Origin: Clostridia bacterium
GTDB taxonomy: Bacteria; Bacillota; Clostridia; Oscillospirales; Acutalibacteraceae
NCBI GenBank assembly: GCA_017410325.1
Contig: JAFQRA010000025.1
Coordinates: 1 to 45,944 of the forward strand
Direction of reading: 5' to 3'
DNA: 45,944 nt
Each line of letters starts with the position of its first letter. Position 1 is the stretch's first letter. The translations under genes were made by a program, and so were the position numbers. The notes under the pieces were generated by a model. It was not told the DNA's origin, did not search any database, and saw nothing but the letters and a program-made list of their open reading frames with translations. Below are positions 150 to 10,728 of the stretch, piece after piece.

Positions 150-1442
150 ATGATGCCTTTTTACAATATATTTAATGAATGGTATGCAGAACAAACAAGC
201 AAGAAAATAAAGGCTGTTTGGAAAGCAAAAGCCGACAATGGAGAAAGAGTTTCCGCTTCAATACCTTTTGGATATGTAAAAAGTGCAGATGACCCTAAGC
301 AGTGGATTGTAGATGAACCTGCCGCAAAAGTTGTAAAGTATATTTTTGAACTATGTCTTGCAGGGTTGGGGCCGTCACAAATAGCAAAGCGATTAGAAAG
401 TGAAGAAATAATTACTCCCACCGAATATTGTTATCGTAATGGGCGTAAGTGCTCTAATCCAAGACCTGAGAATCCATACAGATGGGTATCGGACTCAGTT
501 ATTCACATTCTTGAAAATCGTCAATACACCGGTTGTACGGTAAACTTTATGACATCTTATGTAAGTTTTAAAGTTAAGAAAACAGTATATCACCCTGAGG
601 AGGAATGGAATATAATTCCAAACACTCAGGAAGCTATTATTGATGAAGATACTTTTGAAAGAGTTCAGGAATTACGTAAAAGTCGCCGACGAAACTCTGC
701 TACAGGTAAAACAAGCATTTTTTCAGGACTTTTATATTGTGCTGATTGTGGTTCGAAATTATATTATTGTGCAGCAAAAAGTATTGAGGATGGAAAAGAA
801 TTTTACCGTTGCTCCCAATATAAAGAAAAGCGAGGTTCCTGCACAATTCATTTTATCCGTGATGCGGTATTAAAAGAAATTGTTCTTGACACCATAAAAG
901 CCGTAGCCAAATATGTTACTGAATTTGAACCGATATTTCTTTATCTGTACGCAAAGCATAACACAGCTGATAGGGAAATAAATATTAGGCTGTTGAAACA
1001 AAAGGTAGAAAAAGCTCAAAAGCGTATCGCTGAATTAGATAAACTAATTGAAGGTCTTTATGAATATAATCTTCTTGGCAAGGTCTCCGATGAACGATTT
1101 TATCGTATGTCGGCAAATTATGAAAAAGAGCAAAAAGAATTGCTTGCTGCAGTAGAAAACGACAAGCAAGCAATAAAAACAGCTGAACAAGAAAAAATAG
1201 ACCTTGATGCTTTCTTAAAAGCAATTCGTGGTTGCACCGACTTAAAAGAATTAACACCTACACTTGTAAACACATTGATTAAGCGAATAGATGTTCATAA
1301 CAGTATCAAAGGTGATGATGGATTAAAGCATGTTCCTGTTGATATTTCATTTACAGCAGCGGGTATTATAAACATACCGACAGAACAAGAGATTCTTGAA
1401 ACGATTCAGGAAATGCGTGAAAATCCCCTAAAAACCGCTTGA
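150..1442 (+). CDS. Large serine recombinase, N-terminally truncated (TnpX/Tn4451-like)
   Basis: Site-specific DNA recombinase of the large serine family, which moves integrative elements. What remains is the part after the catalytic domain: a long-helix segment (NIFNEWYAEQTSKKI, residues 6-20), a recombinase DNA-binding domain (about 35-175), a zinc ribbon with Cys197, Cys200, Cys221 and Cys231, a coiled coil (about 275-360) and a DUF4368-like tail. The resolvase-type catalytic domain with its active-site serine, about 130-150 residues, is missing. The frame stays open upstream only to a stop at 81-83, and that extension does not look like recombinase. No good ribosome binding site precedes the first ATG. 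It is therefore probably a non-functional relic or an edge fragment. Family assignment is secure; the inactive state is inferred. Confidence 0.85.
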   Translation: MMPFYNIFNEWYAEQTSKKIKAVWKAKADNGERVSASIPFGYVKSADDPKQWIVDEPAAKVVKYIFELCLAGLGPSQIAKRLESEEIITPTEYCYRNGRKCSNPRPENPYRWVSDSVIHILENRQYTGCTVNFMTSYVSFKVKKTVYHPEEEWNIIPNTQEAIIDEDTFERVQELRKSRRRNSATGKTSIFSGLLYCADCGSKLYYCAAKSIEDGKEFYRCSQYKEKRGSCTIHFIRDAVLKEIVLDTIKAVAKYVTEFEPIFLYLYAKHNTADREINIRLLKQKVEKAQKRIAELDKLIEGLYEYNLLGKVSDERFYRMSANYEKEQKELLAAVENDKQAIKTAEQEKIDLDAFLKAIRGCTDLKELTPTLVNTLIKRIDVHNSIKGDDGLKHVPVDISFTAAGIINIPTEQEILETIQEMRENPLKTA

Positions 1443-1453
1443 AATAAGGAAAA

Positions 1454-1479
1454 CGGCGTAGCCCTAACGGGCTACACCG
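1454..1479. other. Hairpin after the recombinase
   Basis: GTAGCCC (1458-1464) and GGGCTAC (1469-1475) pair around a TAAC loop, and outer CGG/CCG bases extend the stem across one mismatch. There is no T tract, so terminator function is doubtful. A second small inverted repeat, TTAGAGT-GCG-ACTCTAA, lies at 1502-1518. The 1443-1700 gap holds these and a two-hairpin repeat; no gene is seen. Confidence 0.5.
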
Positions 1480-1577
1480 CAACCTGTTTCCAGACTGTCC
1501 TTTAGAGTGCGACTCTAATTTGTGTCGGCTTGTTTTAAGTGTTAAGTTATATTCCGCCTTAGCTTGTTTCAATTAAA

Positions 1578-1654
1578 ACTTCACAGTAGGGGCACATATT
1601 ATGTGCCCGTGAAGTCAGATGAAACCTATCGGGCGGCTGATAGCCGCTCCCTAC
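1578..1654. repeat. Two-hairpin repeat, copy A
   Basis: The unit runs from GTAGGG (1586) to CCCTAC (ending 1654). The left hairpin is GGGCACAT-ATT-ATGTGCCC (1590-1608), extended outward by ACTTCAC/GTGAAGT (1578-1584 and 1609-1615). The right hairpin is GCGGCT-GAT-AGCCGC (1633-1647). The same architecture occurs three more times at 9971-10273. Confidence 0.8.
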
Positions 1655-1700
1655 GCGAACAACCATTGAGTTGTATCTCTTAAGTTGACGGCATTGCTTT

Positions 1701-3044
1701 TTAATGATACTTAGGCATCCAGTCGCCGTGGACTTCGATGAGTTCATCGACCATCTTGACGATATCGTCAATGCTCAGCTCTGAGCCCGTATGCGGGTCG
1801 AGCATAGCTGCCTGGTAGATGTGCTCCTTCTTCTTGGTAACGGCGGCTTCGATTGTGAGAAGCTGAACGTTGATATTCGTCATATTCATTGCGGCAAGCT
1901 GAACGGGAAGTCTGCCGACGTGGCAGGGCGTTACGCCGCTTGCATCGACAAGACAGGGAACCTCAACGCAGGCATCGGCAGGAAGGTTGTCGATAAGGCC
2001 GGTATTGAGCACGTTACCGCCGATTTTGTACGGGTTATTGGTAACCATAGCCTCCATAATGTAAGAAGCATACTCGTGTGAACGGGTGTGAGTAATCTTG
2101 CCGTTGTTGAAAAGCTCTTCCTTTTCCTTTGCCCAGCGGCCTATCTGATTGATACAACGTCTGGGATATTCGTCGAGCGGAATGTTATAATCGGCAATAA
2201 GGTTCGGGTACTTATCCTTTATGTAGAACATATTGTACTCGGAATTGTGCTCGCTGGACTCCGTGCAGTAGTAGCCCAGGCGCTTGATATACTCAAAGCG
2301 CACCATATCGTCGTGCTTCTTTTCGGGGTCAGAGGTTGCAAGGGCGGCAGCGTTGATTTCGGCTGCCCTGCGCTTGATTTCGGGGTAAAGGTCGTTACCG
2401 TCCTTATCGTGAATTTCAAGCAGCCAAGCCATGTGGTTAATACCTGCAATCAGGTCGTATCTGCCTTCCACCTTGTCGTCCATACCGACCTTTCTGAGCA
2501 AGTCACGGGAACAGCCCTGAACGGAGTGGCAGAGGCCTACCGTTTTAATGCCTGTATATCTCTGCATATAGCCCGAAAGGATGGCCATGGGATTGGTGTA
2601 GTTGAGGAACCATGCATCGGGACAGACCTCCTGCATATCCCTTGCAAAATCCTCAAGAACGGGAATTGTACGCAGGCCGCGCATAATGCCGCCGATACCG
2701 AGGGTGTCGGCAATAGTCTGGCGAAGGCCGTATTTCTTCGGAATTTCAAAGTCCGTTATCGTACAGGGGTCATAGAGACCGACCTGAATTGCGTTAACAA
2801 CGAAGTTTGCTCCGCGCAGAGCTTCCTTGCGGTTTTCAACGCCGAGATAGGCCTTGATTTTTGCCTTACCGCCGTTTGCGTTGTTGTTGATGGCACTGAG
2901 AATAAGCTCGGAATCTTCAAGGCGCTGCTTGTCGATATCGTAAAGGGCAATTTCCGCTTCGCAAAGAGCCGGTGTGCACATACTGTCACCCAGAACGTTT
3001 TTTGCAAATACGGTACTGCCGGCGCCCATGAATGTAATTTTCAT
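1701..3044 (-). CDS. melA: Alpha-galactosidase, glycoside hydrolase family 4 (MelA-like)
   Basis: Cytoplasmic NAD- and metal-dependent glycosidase; the family cleaves by a redox-assisted elimination mechanism. The N-terminal Rossmann motif GAGS is at residues 7-10, NYTNPMA at about 148-154, the metal/specificity motif CHSV at 172-175, and GINHMAW at about 201-207. In GH4, CHSV points to alpha-galactosidase rather than 6-phospho-glucosidase. The length of 447 residues matches MelA. The ATG follows TAAGGAGA at a good distance. It starts 34 bases after the stop of an exported metallophosphoesterase on the same strand, so the two are probably one operon driven from 4192-4219. Likely role: release of galactose from imported alpha-galactosides; substrate not determined from sequence. 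Confidence 0.92.
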   Translation of the reverse strand: MKITFMGAGSTVFAKNVLGDSMCTPALCEAEIALYDIDKQRLEDSELILSAINNNANGGKAKIKAYLGVENRKEALRGANFVVNAIQVGLYDPCTITDFEIPKKYGLRQTIADTLGIGGIMRGLRTIPVLEDFARDMQEVCPDAWFLNYTNPMAILSGYMQRYTGIKTVGLCHSVQGCSRDLLRKVGMDDKVEGRYDLIAGINHMAWLLEIHDKDGNDLYPEIKRRAAEINAAALATSDPEKKHDDMVRFEYIKRLGYYCTESSEHNSEYNMFYIKDKYPNLIADYNIPLDEYPRRCINQIGRWAKEKEELFNNGKITHTRSHEYASYIMEAMVTNNPYKIGGNVLNTGLIDNLPADACVEVPCLVDASGVTPCHVGRLPVQLAAMNMTNINVQLLTIEAAVTKKKEHIYQAAMLDPHTGSELSIDDIVKMVDELIEVHGDWMPKYH

Positions 3045-3078
3045 AAAATCAGTCTCCTTATTTTTATTTGTTTCGGCT

Positions 3079-4155
3079 TTAAGCCGTTGGTTGCTCTTCG
3101 GTTGTCTGTTCTTCGGTTGTTTCCTCTACGGAAGGCAGTTCGGTATCGGCTTGCTCAACGAGAGGAATTGTGTATTCGTAAGCCGTGTACCAGATGTTGC
3201 TGGAATAGCTTCTTGCGCGGATTACAACCTCATCCTCATAAACCTCGAAAACAAAGCCGAGGCCGCTCATAAGCTGACCGCGAAGATTGAGGTACATATA
3301 GCTGGGCAGATTCACGCTCGTGATATTGCCGTGGGTCTCAATGCTCTTGAAGCCGTTGATTTTGTAATTGAGTTCATCGCTTATTCCGCTGTGGATATGG
3401 CCGTTGATATAGAACACGTTGTTGTACTTTTGCAGAATTGCGTTGACTGCTTCGGACTGCAGGCCGATACCGCCCGTCATTTCGTCATAATCCTCATCAC
3501 CCCAGGATTCGGGCAGACCGTGAGTCTGATTTATCGGCTGATGGAAAACAACGAAAATCGGCAGGCCATCCTTGGCGGCAAGCGCCATTTCCGCCTCTAA
3601 CCAGGCAAGCTGAGCATCGCTTACATCGGCGGCAACGTGGTCAGCCTCACTGCCGAGTACGATAAAGGTGTAGCCGTTGATTTTGGTTGAATAATAGACG
3701 TTTTCAATTTCTCTGTCGGCGATTTTTTTATTGTACTCGATGAAAAGCTGCTTTGATACCTCGTAGGAGTCGTTACCTTCAGCATCGACACCCCACGTAT
3801 CGTGATTACCCAAAGCGAAAATGATATTTTTTGCAGGTGTATAATCCGCAAATGCCTTTTCAACGTTCTGCCACTCCTCGGGATAGGCGTGGTCGGTAAT
3901 GTCGCCCGCGTGAACGAGCGCATCAAGCTGATAATCCGCATACTGCATATCGGCAAGGCCGAGTTGAGTCATAAACACGCGGCCCTGAGAGGTGGAATTA
4001 ACATGCGTGTCGGACATTGTTGCAAAGGTGAGCTTAACGTTTTCCTCGTCCTTCGGTGCAAACGGTGCGGAAATGTTACCCGCAACGGGGAAAGAGATAA
4101 GCGTGGCAATAGCCATAAAGAATGCAGAAATCGCCCTGAAAATAGTTACAAACAT
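3079..4155 (-). CDS. Exported calcineurin-like metallophosphoesterase
   Basis: Two-metal phosphoesterase. An N-terminal hydrophobic segment (about residues 5-22) acts as signal peptide or membrane anchor. The metallophosphatase motifs are in order: DTH (49-51), GDITD (84-88), GNHD (116-119), a histidine in VVFHQP (about 208) and GHIHSG (about 253). The protein ends in an acidic Thr/Glu tail (ETTEEQTTEEQPTA). It is first in an apparent operon with the downstream GH4 gene and has its own promoter. The GAGGG element before the ATG serves as ribosome binding site. The substrate cannot be told; outside location is inferred from the N-terminus. Two other metallophosphoesterases are in the window (30.2 and 39.2 kb), only the 30.2 kb one also exported. 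Confidence 0.87.
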   Translation of the reverse strand: MFVTIFRAISAFFMAIATLISFPVAGNISAPFAPKDEENVKLTFATMSDTHVNSTSQGRVFMTQLGLADMQYADYQLDALVHAGDITDHAYPEEWQNVEKAFADYTPAKNIIFALGNHDTWGVDAEGNDSYEVSKQLFIEYNKKIADREIENVYYSTKINGYTFIVLGSEADHVAADVSDAQLAWLEAEMALAAKDGLPIFVVFHQPINQTHGLPESWGDEDYDEMTGGIGLQSEAVNAILQKYNNVFYINGHIHSGISDELNYKINGFKSIETHGNITSVNLPSYMYLNLRGQLMSGLGFVFEVYEDEVVIRARSYSSNIWYTAYEYTIPLVEQADTELPSVEETTEEQTTEEQPTA

Positions 4156-4191
4156 AAATAAGCCCTCACACTTAACATAATATTTGGTTTA

Positions 4192-4219
4192 ATTATACAA
4201 TTTTTATATATAAAGTCAA
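4192..4219 (-). promoter_or_regulatory. Promoter of the phosphoesterase/GH4 operon
   Basis: On the minus strand TTGACT (4219-4214) and TATAAT (4197-4192) are separated by 16 bases, about 37 bases before the start codon at 4155. Confidence 0.65.
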
Positions 4220-4247
4220 TAAATTATTGAATTTTTATGAAACATTA

Positions 4248-4658
4248 TCAATAAAGCACCTTGGAAAGCACGAAGCAGGTCCACAGGGCGATAACGAAAA
4301 GGCCCTCTGCAGGAATTGCAAGCTTTGTATAGGGGCATTTCCAGCCCTTGTCAACACAGAGAAAAATCGTTCGGGTGACAAACACGGTTGTTGCAAAGAT
4401 AACACCGCCGACAAGAGAATAGACGGGGGTTTTGAGCGCAACGGTAAGATAGAGCAAAAACGCACCGAGTGCAAAAGAAATACCGCCGTAGTAAACACGG
4501 ATTTCGGTTTTACCCGCATTATCAACGGGCTTTACCGCAAATTTTTCGGCATTCTTTACAGGTGAAGCAATAAACACAACAGCCATACCGAAAAAGTAGC
4601 ATACGAGACCTATTACCGCAACGGCGGCAGGAATATTGGACATCAGAATTTCTTTCAT
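4248..4658 (-). CDS. Four-helix membrane protein, DUF4345-like
   Basis: A 136-residue integral membrane protein with hydrophobic segments at about residues 10-31, 56-76, 80-98 and 114-134. The segment RVYYGGISFALGAFLLYL resembles the DUF4345 family, whose function is unknown; this match is from memory of the pattern and is tentative. The start ATG is preceded by AGGAGGTAA at about 10 bases. It has its own promoter (4691-4719) and lies divergent from the blaI-like gene. No neighbour reveals its job. Confidence 0.75.
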   Translation of the reverse strand: MKEILMSNIPAAVAVIGLVCYFFGMAVVFIASPVKNAEKFAVKPVDNAGKTEIRVYYGGISFALGAFLLYLTVALKTPVYSLVGGVIFATTVFVTRTIFLCVDKGWKCPYTKLAIPAEGLFVIALWTCFVLSKVLY

Positions 4659-4690
4659 AGCTTGAATTACCTCCTGTTATTTATGCTTAC

Positions 4691-4719
4691 ATTTTACTAT
4701 TGTTTTTTCAGTTTAGCAA
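4691..4719 (-). promoter_or_regulatory. Promoter of the DUF4345-like gene
   Basis: Minus-strand TTGCTA (4719-4714), a 17-base spacer and TAAAAT (4696-4691). The start codon is at 4658. Confidence 0.55.
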
Positions 4720-4755
4720 CAACAATTTTTCCTGTTTACAATTTTCGTAAAACTA

Positions 4756-4823
4756 TTGACAAGGTTGTCTATCGGTGATAGACTATAGTTGTAGTCTATT
4801 GACAGTAGACACACAAAAGGAGG
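4756..4823 (+). promoter_or_regulatory. Promoter and clustered BlaI-type operator
   Basis: A -35 TTGACA lies at 4756-4761; the -10 is probably within TAGACTATAGT (4779-4789). Over the promoter sit GTCTAT-N5-ATAGAC (4767-4783) and GTCTA-N7-TAGAC (4794-4810), with centres 27 bases apart. GACTA-N6-TAGTC (4781-4796) interleaves with both. This is the arrangement expected for a dimeric BlaI/MecI-family repressor controlling its own gene. The ribosome binding site AAAGGAGG is at 4816-4823. Confidence 0.75.
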
Positions 4824-4833
4824 ATTTACATAT

Positions 4834-5196
4834 ATGGATGAAATGAAATTGGGAGTTGTTGAAAGCCGCTTTGCCGACATCGTGTGGCAAAACGAGCCAT
4901 TAAGCACGAAGGAGCTCGTTTCGCTTTGCGAAAAAGAGCTTAACTGGAAGCGCACGACCACCTACACCGTGCTGAAAAAGCTGTGCGAAAGAGGAATATT
5001 TCAAACCGAAAGCAGCACGGTAACGGCAAAAATAAGCCGCGAGGAGTTTTATTCCATTCAGAGTGAAAAGTTTGTCGAGGAAACCTTTGAAGGCTCACTC
5101 CCCGCTTTTCTCGCCGCATTTACCTCGCGGAAAAAACTTACGCAAAAGGAAGTAAACGAATTAAGACGGCTGGTTGACGAATATGAGGTGAAGTGA
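4834..5196 (+). CDS. BlaI/MecI/CopY-family transcriptional repressor
   Basis: A 120-residue winged-helix repressor (DNA-binding half about residues 5-75, with the typical WKRTTTYTVLKKL recognition region at about 48-60) followed by a short dimerisation half. In the family, the partner M56 membrane protease triggers cleavage of the repressor and releases the operator. Here the gene overlaps or directly abuts such a protease gene and has several half-sites over its promoter, so autoregulation is very likely. Start codon spacing of 10 bases from AAAGGAGG is ideal. There is no beta-lactamase or PBP gene next to it, so the signal sensed is probably not simply beta-lactam. Confidence 0.92.
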   Translation: MDEMKLGVVESRFADIVWQNEPLSTKELVSLCEKELNWKRTTTYTVLKKLCERGIFQTESSTVTAKISREEFYSIQSEKFVEETFEGSLPAFLAAFTSRKKLTQKEVNELRRLVDEYEVK

Positions 5197-5198
5197 TT

Positions 5199-7910
5199 AT
5201 GGATATTTTTAATATAATCACTACCGCCGTTGACTGGTTTGTAAACGATTTTTACTACCGCTCGCTTAACGTCAGCATATCTGCAACATTTCTGATTCTT
5301 GCAATCGTGTTACTGCGTTTTGTATTGAAAAAAGCACCGAAGTCGCTTATTGCTGCGTTGTGGGGACTGGTTGCAATACGGCTTATATTACCGTTTTCTC
5401 TTGAAAGCTCATTCAGCCTTGTGCCAAGCGGAGAAACAATACCGCAGGAGGCAATTTTCAGCCAGGAAACACAGCACGACAAATTCACTATTGATATTAT
5501 TACAAACCCGAATTACCCCGAAACGGTAACGCAGGAATTCGATGCACCCGTAAGCAGTGTCGGCATTGACCTGATTCAGCTGGAGTTTTTGTGGCTTATC
5601 GGTATTGCGGCAATGCTGCTTTACGCACTTATAAGCTATATAATTATCCGCAGAAAAGTCAGGACATCCGTACGGCTTCGGGATAACGTTTTACTTTGCG
5701 ACAGTATTCCGACACCGTTTATTTTAGGGATAATCAAGCCACAAATCTATACCCCCTCTTACCTGAACGAGGAGGATATGAGCTACGTCATTGCGCACGA
5801 GACGGCTCATTTAAAGCGAAAAGACCACATCTGGAAACCGCTTGGCTTTGTTCTGCTGAGTGTTTACTGGCTCAACCCTGCGATGTGGCTTGCATATATA
5901 CTGCTTTGCAGGGATATTGAGCTTGCCTGCGACGAAAGGGTTATCAAGGAAATGGGCACGGAAATCAAAAAGCCGTACTCGCTTGCCCTTATAAACTGCA
6001 GTGCACCCGGAAAAAGCATAACCGCCTGCCCTCTTGCCTTCGGTGAGGTCGGCGTAAAGGACAGGGTGAAATCCGTGCTCAGCTACAAAAAGCCTGCGTT
6101 TTGGGTTATTATTGTTGCGGTTATACTGAGCGTTGCCGTTGCGGCCTGCTTTATGACTAACCCGATTTCCGTAAACTACGACAGAATTATGAACGAGCAG
6201 GGCTTTACAATAACGGCACAGGAAAGAGCATTGATTACGCTGAGAGTACCGCTTGACAAGCTGCCCGAAAAGGTTACCCGCGAACACGGCTACGGCAAAA
6301 ACGAGATTACGGTATTTCAGCACGGCAAGGCATCAGCCGTTTATCTTGAAAAAGTTATGCCCGTAAGCGACAGAGAAGACCAAATATATCTGTTATTCAA
6401 TATGGCGCACGAGCCCGACAAAGACGGCTTTATCCTTTCAACGGTTTGCAAGGATTACAACGGCTTCACGGACGGCTTAAGCCTTGCAAGCAGTAACGTA
6501 TCAGACAGCGCAACGCAATACGAAAATGCGGTTGATTTGCGCTCAATGGGGCCTGATAATCAGTTCGGAATAACAATAAGCAAAGACGTTTACGAAAGCG
6601 CACAAGACCATATTTTAATATCGCTTTACTGCAACATAATTCACTACACAAATGACAGAAGCTTCAAAAATCTGTATGTAAAAAGCCAAAACGCAAGCTC
6701 GACCAATCCCGAAATCAAGGCGGAAATAACCAACATACTCACAACGGACACTTCGCCGTATATCAACATCCGTTGGGATAATATGAGCGACAGAAAATTA
6801 ACAATTGGCGAAGAATTTTACATTTACCGCAATGAGAACGGTAAATGGGTTGACTGCCGCAAGCCGAGCGATATTGATTTTGCGTTTAACGCCATTGGCT
6901 ATTATATTGAGGCGCAAAGCTTTTCGTTCAAGAAATACAGCCTTGACTTTATGGACCTGAGCGAAAAAGGCAGATACCGTTTTGAAAGCAAGGGCACTCT
7001 TGACGGTGAGGAAATAACGGTATCGGTTGAGTTTGAGCTGAGCAAAGACAGCGTAAAATACTACAAAACACTTCGTGAAGATTACGAAAAAACAACAGAA
7101 TCACCCGATTACGAAACGTATCCGTCTGACACACGCGTAACTGAAGCCCCGACAAAAGAACTGCCGCCTGAAACGACAAACGTGCAACAGCCTGTTGCAC
7201 CGAAGAATTATCCCCAAACCGCCGTTGCATTTACGGGCAGCCGAATACCTTCGGGCGGACTTAATGCAGACAAGGCGTACATCAGCAGTATTCAGCACCT
7301 GCCGATATACAAATTTGAAAGCCGCAAGGAAATTGACAGATTCGTTTCCGAAAACGGTAACAAAATTGCGCTTGATTCAGGCTGGAATGAAGTGCCGAGT
7401 GTCAACACGGTTTTAGCACAGTACGATGATGCGTTTTTTGAAGAAAACGTGCTGTTTGCGGTATTCGTTCACTGCTCCAACTGTACGCACCGCTTTGCAG
7501 TTGACAGCGTTTACAACGACGGCACAAATTTCGCAATTTACGTAAAGCAAACCAACAATCCGCAGGCCGTTGAACATTTGGTAGCAGGCTGGATGCTGAC
7601 GTATACAGCGAAGAAGGATGATGTAAAAAGCTGCATCAGTTTTGACGCACAGCTTAACAGTAGCACAACGCTTGTTACCTCAATTGAGGATTTAACGGTG
7701 ACGCAACAGCTTACAACCGACTCAGCCCTGCAGCCGTTTTACGAAGACGATGAATACGTATATTCCTATCCGTCGATACGAAACGATTACGTAATAGTCA
7801 CATTCGTAAACGGAACACAGATGACAGCCAAGGAAGCACTCGAAAAAGGATACATCACAATCGGCGACCTTGACTTATGGCAGATACAATATATAAAACA
7901 GCCCAAATAA
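5199..7910 (+). CDS. M56-family (BlaR1-like) membrane peptidase/sensor with large novel outer domain
   Basis: Membrane zinc protease that signals to the adjacent BlaI-type repressor. Counting from the ATG at 5199, hydrophobic segments are at about 26-46, 50-68, 130-151, 215-235 and 301-318. The zinc motif HETAH is at 200-204 and the downstream metal-ligand region DIELACDE at 239-246. The outer part is about 580 residues and shows no transpeptidase-type SxxK penicillin-binding domain. It contains an Ig-like segment (about 505-620), a Thr/Pro/Glu-rich linker (about 630-665) and a further globular part with a Cys-Ser-Asn-Cys pair (HCSNCTH). A GTG at 5193, overlapping the repressor stop, is an alternative start, but GAGGTG at 5184-5189 is better spaced for 5199. 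The ligand is unknown. Confidence 0.88.
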   Translation: MDIFNIITTAVDWFVNDFYYRSLNVSISATFLILAIVLLRFVLKKAPKSLIAALWGLVAIRLILPFSLESSFSLVPSGETIPQEAIFSQETQHDKFTIDIITNPNYPETVTQEFDAPVSSVGIDLIQLEFLWLIGIAAMLLYALISYIIIRRKVRTSVRLRDNVLLCDSIPTPFILGIIKPQIYTPSYLNEEDMSYVIAHETAHLKRKDHIWKPLGFVLLSVYWLNPAMWLAYILLCRDIELACDERVIKEMGTEIKKPYSLALINCSAPGKSITACPLAFGEVGVKDRVKSVLSYKKPAFWVIIVAVILSVAVAACFMTNPISVNYDRIMNEQGFTITAQERALITLRVPLDKLPEKVTREHGYGKNEITVFQHGKASAVYLEKVMPVSDREDQIYLLFNMAHEPDKDGFILSTVCKDYNGFTDGLSLASSNVSDSATQYENAVDLRSMGPDNQFGITISKDVYESAQDHILISLYCNIIHYTNDRSFKNLYVKSQNASSTNPEIKAEITNILTTDTSPYINIRWDNMSDRKLTIGEEFYIYRNENGKWVDCRKPSDIDFAFNAIGYYIEAQSFSFKKYSLDFMDLSEKGRYRFESKGTLDGEEITVSVEFELSKDSVKYYKTLREDYEKTTESPDYETYPSDTRVTEAPTKELPPETTNVQQPVAPKNYPQTAVAFTGSRIPSGGLNADKAYISSIQHLPIYKFESRKEIDRFVSENGNKIALDSGWNEVPSVNTVLAQYDDAFFEENVLFAVFVHCSNCTHRFAVDSVYNDGTNFAIYVKQTNNPQAVEHLVAGWMLTYTAKKDDVKSCISFDAQLNSSTTLVTSIEDLTVTQQLTTDSALQPFYEDDEYVYSYPSIRNDYVIVTFVNGTQMTAKEALEKGYITIGDLDLWQIQYIKQPK

Positions 7911-7917
7911 AGTAAAA

Positions 7918-7950
7918 GCACTCCCGTCTCGGTTGACGGGAGTGCCTTTT
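7918..7950. terminator. Bidirectional intrinsic terminator
   Basis: GCACTCCCGTC (7918-7928) pairs perfectly with GACGGGAGTGC (7935-7945), followed by CTTTT. It lies between convergent genes. Confidence 0.9.
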
Positions 7951-7965
7951 GTTTATGTATTCGGA

Positions 7966-8880
7966 TTAATACTTGAAGTTCTTGTAGATAACGTGTGATG
8001 AACCGGTTGCGTTACCGCCGCCTGCTGCATCGATAACAACGCTGATATTATATTCAACAGTAAGGCTTACAAGATGACCTGTTGTTGAATCGATAACAGC
8101 CTTAACCTTTGCGTTGTTGTAGCTCTCGCTGATTTTTGCGCCGCCAAGAACGTCGTCAATAGCATCGTAAATAACGATAGCTGTCTTGTGGTCATAATAG
8201 CTCTTGTCTGCATCGCCAACGCAGATACCGCACTTGTCGATGGGAGAGTTGTTGGACTTGGAATTCTTGTCAGCATAACTCTTGCCGCCCTTAACGTTAA
8301 GAACGACTGTGTACTGAGTGCCGTTAGCTGTGCAAGTTGCATTTGTAACGTCAGCTGCTGTAAGAGTGCTCTTGCGAAGGTACTGGTGAGGAAGATCGGA
8401 TTCCCACTGACCCTTGGTTACGTCCATTGTGTACTTGTTTTCTGCGCCGATGCCCATAAACTTATACAAAACGTCGCCGAATGTCTTGAGAAGGAAGCCT
8501 GCATTGAGCTGCTCGTTGTCAACGTAACGAACCTTGTTAAAGCCAACCTTTGCAGCAACAGCCTTGTTTACTGCTGTGTTGTAGTAGGAAATGATTTCGT
8601 CTACTGTAACGGGCAAAACGGCTTGTGTTGTTTCTTCTGCTTCGGAGCTGCTCTCTTCGGAAGCGGCCTCGCCTGTTGCACCCTCAGCGGAAGCAGGCTC
8701 TGTTTCGCCTGTTGCGGACTCTGTTGCATCTGCTGAGGGAGCCTCAGTAGCGTTTGCGTCGAGAGTTTCGTCGGCAAGTGTGGTGGATTCGTCTGTTACG
8801 GGGTCGGGCTCTTTCTCGCCGCAGGCAGCAAAGCTAAGGAGCATTGCAGCGGCAAGAAGAAGCGCAAGAAGTTTTTTCAT
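7966..8880 (-). CDS. Lipoprotein with acidic linker, paralogue of the 38.2 kb lipoprotein
   Basis: Exported lipoprotein of about 304 residues. A lipobox (LLSFAACGEK) gives a lipidated cysteine near residue 19. A linker rich in Thr, Ser, Ala and Glu (about 22-95) is followed by a folded domain of about 210 residues. The domain resembles that of the lipoprotein at 38174-39034: both open with a helix of the type I-I-x-x-Y-x-x-A, have an amphipathic helix (LLKTFGDVLYKFMG here), then paired strands. The start chosen is the ATG before KKLLAL, eight or nine bases after AAAGGAGAA; longer starts lack this. It follows an mltG-like gene by 53 bases on the same strand. No function is known. Confidence 0.8.
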   Translation of the reverse strand: MKKLLALLLAAAMLLSFAACGEKEPDPVTDESTTLADETLDANATEAPSADATESATGETEPASAEGATGEAASEESSSEAEETTQAVLPVTVDEIISYYNTAVNKAVAAKVGFNKVRYVDNEQLNAGFLLKTFGDVLYKFMGIGAENKYTMDVTKGQWESDLPHQYLRKSTLTAADVTNATCTANGTQYTVVLNVKGGKSYADKNSKSNNSPIDKCGICVGDADKSYYDHKTAIVIYDAIDDVLGGAKISESYNNAKVKAVIDSTTGHLVSLTVEYNISVVIDAAGGGNATGSSHVIYKNFKY

Positions 8881-8933
8881 ATCGGGGAATTCTCCTTTCA
8901 TATTTAATGCCTTTACAGGCATTGATTACAAAT

Positions 8934-9737
8934 TTAATCTTCGATATACTTATCGACGTTTGCGCTGTGCTCCTTCCACGTTACGGCATAGTGATAGTTC
9001 ATATCCTTATCCGTAAGGAAGAAGTAATAGTCGGTATCCTCGGGGTAAAGTGCGGCTTCAATTGCGCTTCTGCCGACGTTGGTTATAGGCCCTGCCGGCA
9101 AGCCGACGCGCTTATACGCATTATAAAGCTCGCTGTAAACGGAAATATCCTCAACATAGGGCTCGACGGAATTGCGAAGGTAGAAAACAGTTACGTCACA
9201 CTCGAGCTTACCGTAGGCGGAATCAAGCCTGTTGTGAAGCACTGAGGAAACCGTTTTCATCTCGGGGTCAAGCGCCTCCTCCTGAATAATTGAAGCTATG
9301 CGGATAACCTCGTCAAGCGTGTAGCCAAGCTCAGCAGCACGGTCAAAATCCGCCTGAGTGAGCTTATTTTCAAAATTATCAAGGAATTTCTTTAACACCG
9401 CCTGCGGATTCATATCGAAATAGAATTCGTAGGTATCGGGGAAAATATATCCCTCAAGCAGAAAAGGTCTTTCCTCGGGATTGTCTATGCCCTCGATAAA
9501 GTAATAGTCACCCTCCGGCGCATTGACAGCCGCCATAAAGTCCGCCGCGGCACAGACACCGTTCTGCTCTAAAAGGGCGGCAATTTCGCTGACGGTTGAG
9601 CCCTCGGGAAACATAACCCTGACGGTGGGAATGGCGGTAGTGGTCGGGCGAAGCTCCTCTTTTATTTTTTCAGCCGAACAGCCGAAAAGAGAAAATACGG
9701 ATAGTAACGCAAGAATTACGGTTAAAGTCCTTTTCAT
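8934..9737 (-). CDS. mltG: Endolytic transglycosylase MltG-like (YceG), lipoprotein form
   Basis: Peptidoglycan-cutting enzyme that ends glycan strand growth. The core motifs are present: EGYIFPDTYEF (about 95-105), ASIIQEEA with the invariant glutamate at 154, HNRL (168-171), GLPAGPITN (212-220) and ALYPEDTDYYFFL (229-241). The protein has 267 residues, short for the family (usually 330-400), lacking most of the N-terminal region. Most MltG proteins have a single membrane helix; here the N-terminus ends in LFGC at residues 17-20, a plausible lipobox. GGAGG is best spaced for the ATG at 9737; an ATG at 9743 touches the ribosome binding site. Promoter at 9762-9790. Confidence 0.9.
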   Translation of the reverse strand: MKRTLTVILALLSVFSLFGCSAEKIKEELRPTTTAIPTVRVMFPEGSTVSEIAALLEQNGVCAAADFMAAVNAPEGDYYFIEGIDNPEERPFLLEGYIFPDTYEFYFDMNPQAVLKKFLDNFENKLTQADFDRAAELGYTLDEVIRIASIIQEEALDPEMKTVSSVLHNRLDSAYGKLECDVTVFYLRNSVEPYVEDISVYSELYNAYKRVGLPAGPITNVGRSAIEAALYPEDTDYYFFLTDKDMNYHYAVTWKEHSANVDKYIED

Positions 9738-9761
9738 TCTCATCCTCCAACATACTGTGTA

Positions 9762-9790
9762 ATTATACTACATCTTTTTACACATTGCAA
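9762..9790 (-). promoter_or_regulatory. Promoter of the mltG-like gene
   Basis: Minus-strand TTGCAA (9790-9785), 17-base spacer, TATAAT (9767-9762). It is back to back with the tRNA promoter. Confidence 0.7.
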
Positions 9791-9793
9791 GGG

Positions 9794-9823
9794 TTGACAA
9801 AAATATTAATATTGTTTTATAAT
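9794..9823 (+). promoter_or_regulatory. Promoter of tRNA-Ala
   Basis: TTGACA at 9794-9799 and TATAAT at 9818-9823 with an 18-base spacer, about 20 bases before the mature tRNA. Confidence 0.75.
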
Positions 9824-9843
9824 CTATTTACAAAATTACATCT

Positions 9844-9919
9844 GGGCCCGTAGCTCAGCTGGGAGAGCGTACGGTTCGCATCCGTAAGGCCGAGGGTTCA
9901 ATTCCCTTCGGGTCCACCA
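9844..9919 (+). tRNA. tRNA-Ala (anticodon CGC)
   Basis: A 76-base cloverleaf with encoded CCA. The acceptor stem GGGCCCG (9844-9850) pairs with CGGGTCC (9909-9915) and includes the G3:U70 pair that is the identity element of alanine tRNAs. The D stem is GCTC/GAGC, the anticodon stem TACGG/CCGTA with loop TTCGCAT, and the T loop is TTCAATT. Anticodon CGC reads GCG codons. Confidence 0.96.
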
Positions 9920-9920
9920 C

Positions 9921-9946
9921 AAAAAGCACGCTTATGCGTGCTTTTT
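9921..9946 (+). terminator. tRNA terminator
   Basis: AAAAAGCACGC (9921-9931) and GCGTGCTTTTT (9936-9946) form a perfect 11-base stem with loop TTAT directly after the CCA end. Confidence 0.92.
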
Positions 9947-9970
9947 CAACTAAATCCGTCTTCGTCTATT

Positions 9971-10047
9971 GTAGGGACAATTCATGAATTGTCCGCCGTA
10001 AAAGAGATATGAAGGTAAATTACGGGCGATTCGTGAATCGCCTCTAC
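9971..10047. repeat. Two-hairpin repeat, copy B
   Basis: Starts GTAGGG (9971) and ends CTCTAC (10047). The left hairpin is GGACAATTC-AT-GAATTGTCC (9975-9994); the right is GGCGATTC-GT-GAATCGCC (10025-10042). Stems differ from copy A but layout and ends are the same. Confidence 0.8.
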
Positions 10048-10076
10048 TACATTGTAACATCTTAAAGTTGACTTTT

Positions 10077-10144
10077 GTAGGGGCGGATATTATCCGCCCG
10101 TGCTGATATTGCTCGGTTTGCTGGCGGCTGATAGCCGCCCCTAC
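10077..10144. repeat. Two-hairpin repeat, copy C
   Basis: Starts GTAGGG and ends CCCTAC. The left hairpin is GGGCGGAT-ATT-ATCCGCCC (10081-10099); the right is GGCGGCT-GAT-AGCCGCC (10123-10139), nearly identical to the right hairpin of copy A. Confidence 0.82.
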
Positions 10145-10150
10145 AGTGAA

Positions 10151-10331
10151 GTTTTAGTTGTTACAGCGTACTACTTGGTTATTATATCAATTAAAAACAT
10201 ATCGTAGGGAAGAGGCTTACTCCTTCCGATAAGTTTAATCAGACTTTACGGCAGGAGCGAGCCCCTGCCCTACATTACACTCTCAAAAAAAGAATTATAA
10301 TTGTAATGTTTTAGTAGTTACAAAGCACTAC
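10151..10331 (+). repeat. Pair of 24-base direct repeats around copy D
   Basis: The segments 10151-10174 and 10308-10331 match at 20 of 24 positions (both begin GTTTTAGT and end ACTAC). They flank two-hairpin copy D. A related inverted stretch (TGTAACATCTTAAAG) lies at about 10054-10068, left of copy C. No gene is seen in 9947-10383; it is filled by these repeats. Confidence 0.65.
10204..10273. repeat. Two-hairpin repeat, copy D
   Basis: Starts GTAGGG and ends CCCTAC. The left hairpin is GGGAAGAG/CTCCTTCC with a one-base bulge (10207-10227); the right is GGCAGG/CCTGCC (about 10250-10269) with an imperfect GC extension. Stem sequences are unrelated to those of A-C. Confidence 0.72.
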
Positions 10332-10383
10332 AAGTCTTCACCCTGAAGTTTTACAGTATAATCAGCACCAAGGAAGTGATAGT

Positions 10384-10728
10384 GTGCACTATGATACAGA
10401 GTTCTGGAATGCATTAGACGAATTGGTAAGCAATTCGGAAATTGTGATTGACAGACCCAAAGGAACTTCACACCCGAAATATCCCGATTTCGTTTATCGG
10501 GTAGATTACGGATATCTGAAGGACACGTCATCTATGGACGGTGCGGGAATAGACGTATGGGTCGGAAGCGGCGAAAAGAAGGTTGATGCAATAATGTGCA
10601 TTGTTGATTTGATGAAGAAAGATTCAGAAATTAAAATATTAATCGGATGCACAGAGGAAGAAAAGTCCATCGTATACGAAACACACAACGAAACACAGTT
10701 TATGAAAGGTGTTTTGATACGCAGATAA
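10384..10728 (+). CDS. Small inorganic pyrophosphatase-like protein
   Basis: A 114-residue protein similar to the core of family I soluble pyrophosphatases. It has DRPKGTSHP (about 23-31) and YRVDYGYLKDTSSMDGAGIDV (about 38-58), corresponding to the family's Tyr-Gly-Tyr and D-x-x-x-x-D metal-binding signature. At 114 residues it is much shorter than normal enzymes (about 175), so pyrophosphate hydrolysis is not assured. The start is GTG, seven bases after AAGGAAG (10370-10376). It is followed after 22 bases by another gene with its own AAGGAG site, so both are probably cotranscribed. It sits just downstream of a repeat-filled region next to a tRNA gene. Confidence 0.75.
   Translation: MHYDTEFWNALDELVSNSEIVIDRPKGTSHPKYPDFVYRVDYGYLKDTSSMDGAGIDVWVGSGEKKVDAIMCIVDLMKKDSEIKILIGCTEEEKSIVYETHNETQFMKGVLIRR

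Follow-up and report, generated by a model that had tools for sequence, protein, structure and literature searches.

Probable REPINs with changing stems, nested repeats and hairpin-bearing RAYT genes in a Clostridia bacterium

Repetitive extragenic palindromic (REP) sequences occur as inverted doublets, known as REP doublets forming hairpins (REPINs) or bacterial interspersed mosaic elements (BIMEs), which, in the available parts of the literature, are described as having GTAG on the outside, lying extragenically and in clusters, showing compensatory changes and including heterodimers (Bertels & Rainey 2011, PMC3116915; Di Nocera 2013, PMC3733652). The available text of the latter also describes the GTAG-15 repeats of Anabaena variabilis, REP dimers inside long palindromes of which an empty version was not found. 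For the REP-associated tyrosine transposases (RAYTs, or TnpA-REP), the part consulted of Quentin 2018 (PMC6006769) reports in-frame REPs within the genes of subclass 2.4, generally between HuH and Y, and for the Group 3 REPtron of Stenotrophomonas maltophilia the loop and the GTAG are reported to matter, and the stem bases less so (PMC8266576, in part). Here we describe four two-hairpin units in a stretch of 45,944 nucleotides (the window) from a Clostridia bacterium (assembly GCA_017410325.1, contig JAFQRA010000025.1). The units are very probably REPINs: non-autonomous mobile repeats of two inverted GTAG-tagged REP hairpins, most likely spread by RAYTs.

The ends of the units recur throughout the genome, as the original prediction of a repeat family had anticipated: the pattern GTAGGG-N40-60-CCCTAC retrieved 48 copies and the wider N40-66 version 74, against 1 for the backwards-pattern control in either case. 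A covariance model of one half (a single REP hairpin; built from 16 halves, partly from those of the window) was also run against the genome, where it scored 150 of 1006 candidates and therefore gives no full census. Several contigs of genome G000 (C8, C15, C17, C28, C29, C32 and C36) start or stop inside a composite repeat of about 200 bp that is described below; the assembly is probably broken by this repeat, and the copy numbers are therefore lower bounds. The usual half consists of GTAG followed by a stem of about 8 pairs that starts with GG; the loop has 3-4 bases, and the half closes with CG. This one genome contains at least seven stem types, including: GGGCGGAT with GGCGGCT; GGGCACAT; GGGAGGGG/GGGAGGCG; GGAACGGT and its kin; GGCAGGGG; GGACAATT/GGGCGATT; and a longer type in which a mismatch is conserved, GGGACGGCG..CGACGTCCC. 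In the fetched loci a single loop can occur with several stems, CTTG with six. The repeats are mainly intergenic, 17 of the 18 checked REPINs lying outside open reading frames (ORFs) of at least 120 aa, whereas 82% of random 70-mers overlap such an ORF. High copy number, extragenic placement and two inverted REPs with their GTAG feet outside are all features of REPINs and BIMEs.

The four units of the window belong to different families and compensation was therefore tested on larger sets. In the least biased set, 24 units (the 9971 unit and 23 others that had been picked solely by their ends) yielded 38 distinct halves: a perfect stem of at least 6 pairs was found in 31 of these (81.6%), against 1.7% in shuffles, and was lacking in 7. 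Within 16 hand-picked halves, which were chosen by structure, 95.3% of the cells were paired compared to 67.0% after reshuffling. The 53 distinct rows among the 150 model matches yielded 96.9% versus 66.9% (slid versions at most 58.5%) and a covariation score of 0.772 versus 0.202, in a test that was fitted to the half model and therefore leans towards structure. The claim that the stems change and yet remain paired, for which a covariance model and a covariation test had been suggested, is thus borne out, and selection on shape is supported by all three sets. Hairpins that are kept while their sequence changes are likewise a feature of REPINs and BIMEs.

The units of the window and the arms that lie beside them are the following:
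1560..1585, minus strand: arm beside REPIN A, resembling the reverse complement of the right arm of a 130-bp unit (based on matches to query 261-294).
1586..1654 (69 bp), no strand assigned: REPIN A, REP GGGCACAT-ATT-ATGTGCCC (1586-1609) and an inverted REP with a GGCGGCT-type hairpin (1630-1654).
9971..10047 (77 bp), no strand assigned: REPIN B, REP GGACAATT-CATG-AATTGTCC (9971-9995) and inverted REP GGCGATT-CACG-AATCGCC (10023-10047).
10048..10076, plus strand: composite left arm (TACATTGTAACATCTTAAAGTTGACTTTT), part of the 130-bp unit and adjoining the CTAC end of REPIN B.
10077..10144 (68 bp), no strand assigned: REPIN C, REP GGGCGGAT-ATT-ATCCGCCC (10077-10100) and inverted REP GGCGGCT-ATC-AGCCGCC (10121-10144).
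10145..10174, plus strand: composite right arm (AGTGAAGTTTTAGTTGTTACAGCGTACTAC), part of the 130-bp unit and an imperfect complement of the left arm.
10204..10273 (70 bp), no strand assigned: REPIN D, REP GGAAGAGG/CTCCTTCC (10204-10228) and inverted REP GGCAGGGG-CTCG-CTCCTGCC (10249-10273).

All four two-hairpin units are present at the positions originally assigned to them, with ends and stems as described, save for one extra base in the right stem of the 1586 unit (GCTCCC); the 9971 unit ends in CTCTAC. The half model, which was partly built from such halves, had 8 matches in the window at E<=1 and all of these are halves of the four units. Folded as single-stranded DNA, each unit outperforms every one of 200 shuffles (z -4.1 to -4.9), and the stretch 10041-10174 folds with z -6.9. 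REPIN C represents the commonest type among the N40-60 pattern matches listed for the genome. In Rfam, at gathering thresholds, a tRNA was the sole match in the window.

The presence of the units varies between relatives. At the 1586 locus 10 genomes with a match were compared: a unit is carried by the window genome and by its near relative G006, and no REP hairpin was found in the fetched flank of 8 of the 10 (a flank of only 241 bases in G009). At the 9971 locus no REP hairpin was found in G006 or G005, the two genomes compared, and another unit (L009) is absent from G006 between flanks that are 95-96% identical. The strain comparison that had been proposed for both sites thus did find genomes without the units, and together with the copy number and the RAYT genes it supports the proposed mobile, REP/MITE-like element (MITE, miniature inverted-repeat transposable element). 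A clean empty site for 9971-10273 in G006 was ruled out, the sequence there being unrelated. At that place and after 1517 (stretches L069 and L073) G006 carries another array, of short hairpins joined by TATATCATC-like linkers, that follows the tRNA and also a recombinase gene and represents a further palindromic repeat family. The recombinase gene of the window (150-1517) encodes a serine recombinase (PF07508, zinc ribbon, DUF4368); its sequence is common to the window and contig C16 of G006 up to about 1517, beyond which the two diverge, and this position is probably the end of an integrated element, with REPIN A outside it. Hairpins also appear to be exchanged as modules, as had been suggested. 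At the L011 site G006 has another REPIN type at the same place with both flanks kept, and at the 1586 site it has the same right hairpin and right flank and a different left half and left flank, which fits an exchange inside the unit, or a misassembly.

The genome contains two Y1_Tnp genes, both of the RAYT type and both bearing GTAG hairpins. In RAYT1 (L001) a REP lies just 5' of the coding start and an inverted REP lies in frame after the HuH motif; in RAYT2 (L002) both REPs are found within the gene region. All 6 RAYTs tested had NF047646 (REP-associated tyrosine transposase) as their best family, and one of them scored above the curated NCBIfam cut-off of this family (80 bits). The 22 aligned proteins all possess the His-x-His motif and the catalytic Tyr, and at the positions aligned with the GTAG-contact residues of 4ER8 (roles taken from the part consulted of PMC6006769), the predicted contacts are Gln in 22, Arg in 22 and Trp in 16 of the 22; these motifs and residues are features of the RAYTs. 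The structure 4ER8 was also the sole structure match of L195 (E 0.0018). RAYT1 had no match among solved structures, and a model made for it from two sequences was unusable (mean pLDDT, the predicted local distance difference test, 50.6), although the order of its strands and helices fits.

Hairpins in or beside such genes are common. A GTAG hairpin was found inside the gene or at most 200 bp away in 14 of 14 RAYTs of the genus and in 11 of the 20 loci fetched from the family, which makes 25 of the 34 Y1 loci that are RAYT-like or score lower, against 0 of 36 IS200-like loci. The genus set represents 14 of 24 Y1 matches (six of the other ten are IS200-like controls; L032, L036, L041 and L042 were left out) and the family set consists of 20 chosen lower-scoring loci (other low-scoring or fragmentary rows, e.g. 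G088:C226 and G071:C8, were left out). For the 30 family controls the scan assumed a generic gene position; the more cautious statement is that a single GTAG hairpin exists among the 36 control loci as a whole, and that it lies outside the scanned ranges. The presence of a RAYT gene that contains or adjoins REPs of the same kind is again a feature of REPINs and BIMEs.

Within 26 genes, a set that includes near-identical ones (L001 and L040), the hairpins occupy two slots around the HuH codons: i) 15 hairpins lie 96-132 bases upstream of these codons, all on the coding strand and 14 in one phase; and ii) 19 hairpins lie 33-54 bases downstream, all on the opposite strand and 17 in one phase. Both slots are filled, head-to-head, in 11 of the 26 genes; a hairpin is absent or unseen in the upstream slot of 11 genes and in the downstream slot of 7, and a few genes have extra hairpins outside the two. 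The stems match within a gene: arm identity was 0.950, against 0.593 when the hairpins were dealt out anew (0 of 5000), for the 41 hairpins of the 18 genes with two or more; this comparison includes all GTAG hairpins of these genes and repeats one that had used two chosen hairpins per gene. For 28 distinct in-gene hairpins 96.0% of the cells were paired, against 59.1% with the arms reshuffled, but because these hairpins were found by pairing the test is partly circular and mainly shows that the stems differ between genes. The peptides encoded by the hairpins differ between genes too; selection on the in-gene hairpin as a nucleic acid, be it DNA or RNA, is the simplest reading. The distance between the proteins outside the slots follows the distance between the stems (21 genes, r 0.44, 0 of 5000; 17 non-redundant genes, r 0.24, P 0.003).

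The original prediction was right about the units themselves and had not seen these hairpins in transposase genes, nor the nesting of units in larger repeats. REPIN C lies within a unit of about 130 bp with imperfect inverted arms, of which the outer ends are often GTAG and CTAC again. The fetched stretches contain 32 copies (27 with both arms by motif, one without arms, L104, and 2 cut by the end of the stretch), and 23 of them adjoin the tip of another REP, with a changed base in the REP end in one case (L014); on reading, four further copies adjoin a REP with one changed base. A second composite, of about 200 bp, is bounded by REPs of the mismatch type, and its inner slot is occupied either by the 130-bp unit or by REPINs, of which several types occur there. 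No listed match spans its joined arms without an insert, and the slot could therefore not be dated.

How might such repeats be spread? By analogy with the model for TnpA-REP of Escherichia coli and Stenotrophomonas (PMC8266576, in part), a RAYT, being a single-strand transposase of the HuH/Y1 type, would bind single-stranded DNA at the hairpin, with GTAG as a guide, and cut nearby. The ends would be fixed because GTAG is needed for cleavage, and the stem bases would be free to change while pairing is kept because recognition would rest on shape, loop and GTAG. Unlike stems within one unit could reflect heterodimers and recombination between dispersed units, and the cognate REPs are also kept in frame inside the RAYT genes, in two slots around the HuH codons. 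From this we infer both that these RAYTs move these repeats and how they would cut.

Three other explanations deserve weighing. Hairpins could act in RNA, as terminators or stabilisers of mRNA, and be copied by ordinary duplication; they are stable and mostly intergenic, and an RNA role has been proposed for REPs (PMC3733652, in part). However, no terminator-like site was found in 9800-10450 of the window, presence varies between close relatives, and neither the constancy of the GTAG foot nor the occurrence of in-frame copies within transposase genes would be explained, so that we regard this explanation as highly improbable. For the 130-bp unit around REPIN C one may think of a MITE of a DDE transposase, with terminal inverted arms, a 4-bp target duplication and the REPIN as cargo. 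The conservation of the copies over about 130 bp, beyond GTAG..CTAC, and the imperfect complementarity of the arms would agree with this, as would the L010 site, where a relative without the unit has one GTAG and the filled site two (a single site, with flanks about 82% identical). The arms are imperfect, however, the outer ends are themselves GTAG/CTAC in many copies, and the frequent abutment on another REP's tip points to a REP-like target; we therefore consider such a MITE unlikely. Somewhat less unlikely, though still not favoured, is that the apparent exchange at 1586 is an artefact of a fragmented assembly broken at repeats: at least ten contigs have an end no more than about 140 bases from such a repeat and the left flank switches inside the unit, but units that join different stem types occur repeatedly elsewhere, and the switch at L011 has both flanks kept.

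Several observations count against the interpretation as RAYT-spread REPINs. No transposition event was seen, the evidence being presence and absence between genomes. In 9 of the 20 family loci no hairpin was found in the scanned range; four of these (L179, L180, L182 and L186) are other Y1 types on reading and in a fifth, L196, a single hairpin precedes the HuH codons by 402 bases. RAYT2 (L002 1319-1800) changes frame near its first hairpin, which indicates either a decayed gene or an assembly error. The predicted specificity of a RAYT for the REP family of its own genome failed, in-gene stems being no closer to REPINs of the same genome than to REPINs of other genomes (0.776 versus 0.744, P ~0.20; partial REPIN lists of six genomes, mismatch-type composites left out). 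Neither of the two RAYTs of this genome corresponds to its commonest REPIN type; the GGGCGGCT stem occurs in a RAYT of G007 (L033). Finally, G006, which is 86% complete, has 46 REPINs and no Y1_Tnp match. Gene transfer, gene loss and incomplete assemblies could lie behind the last three points.

The system works like a REPIN/RAYT system and, by the features tested, is one. As far as the available parts of the cited papers go, doublets, compensatory changes and heterodimers are common to REPINs/BIMEs and the window units, and the palindromes with REP dimers (Di Nocera 2013) are a precedent for the layout of the 200-bp composite. What differs here is, probably, the Clostridia host, the number of stem types in one genome, and the arrangement of units tip to tip or in concentric nests with a variable inner unit. 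Firmicutes are unmentioned in the main texts of PMC3116915 and PMC3733652, as are clostridi- terms in the latter, and no paper title was found that names REPINs in this bacterial group (most subscription literature lay outside the search). The in-frame REP is shared with subclass 2.4, whereas the RAYTs described here also have a slot before HuH, a head-to-head orientation, a near-fixed phase and matching stems within the gene; the second slot may already appear in Figure S10 of the supplement of PMC6006769. With the Group 3 REPtron the units share the 8-bp perfect stem, the 3-nt loop and the GTAG foot; they differ in host and in their many stem types, and the present system is known from sequence alone. 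The kind of system is hence known, one in-gene slot has already been published, and the nesting and the in-gene hairpin pair make it a notable variant. We tentatively suggest, at rather less than even confidence, that the RAYT gene of this bacterial family carries a built-in REPIN and that dispersed REPINs land on GTAG tips, thereby building nested composites.

If there is such a built-in REPIN, two head-to-head cognate REPs, spaced by the HuH codons, would each have a fixed slot and phase and would be maintained as nucleic-acid hairpins in spite of being coding sequence. The transposase would then have its own target within its gene, which may serve self-regulation, or as a template that matches enzyme and repeat as the stems drift. 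The findings bear on the question of how a RAYT and its REPs remain matched when the stems change: about two dozen diverged genes, each encoding an enzyme and containing the hairpins cognate to it, form a set of enzyme-site pairs with which to test what bases are recognised, and the tip-to-tip and concentric arrangements provide sequence evidence on where such units land.

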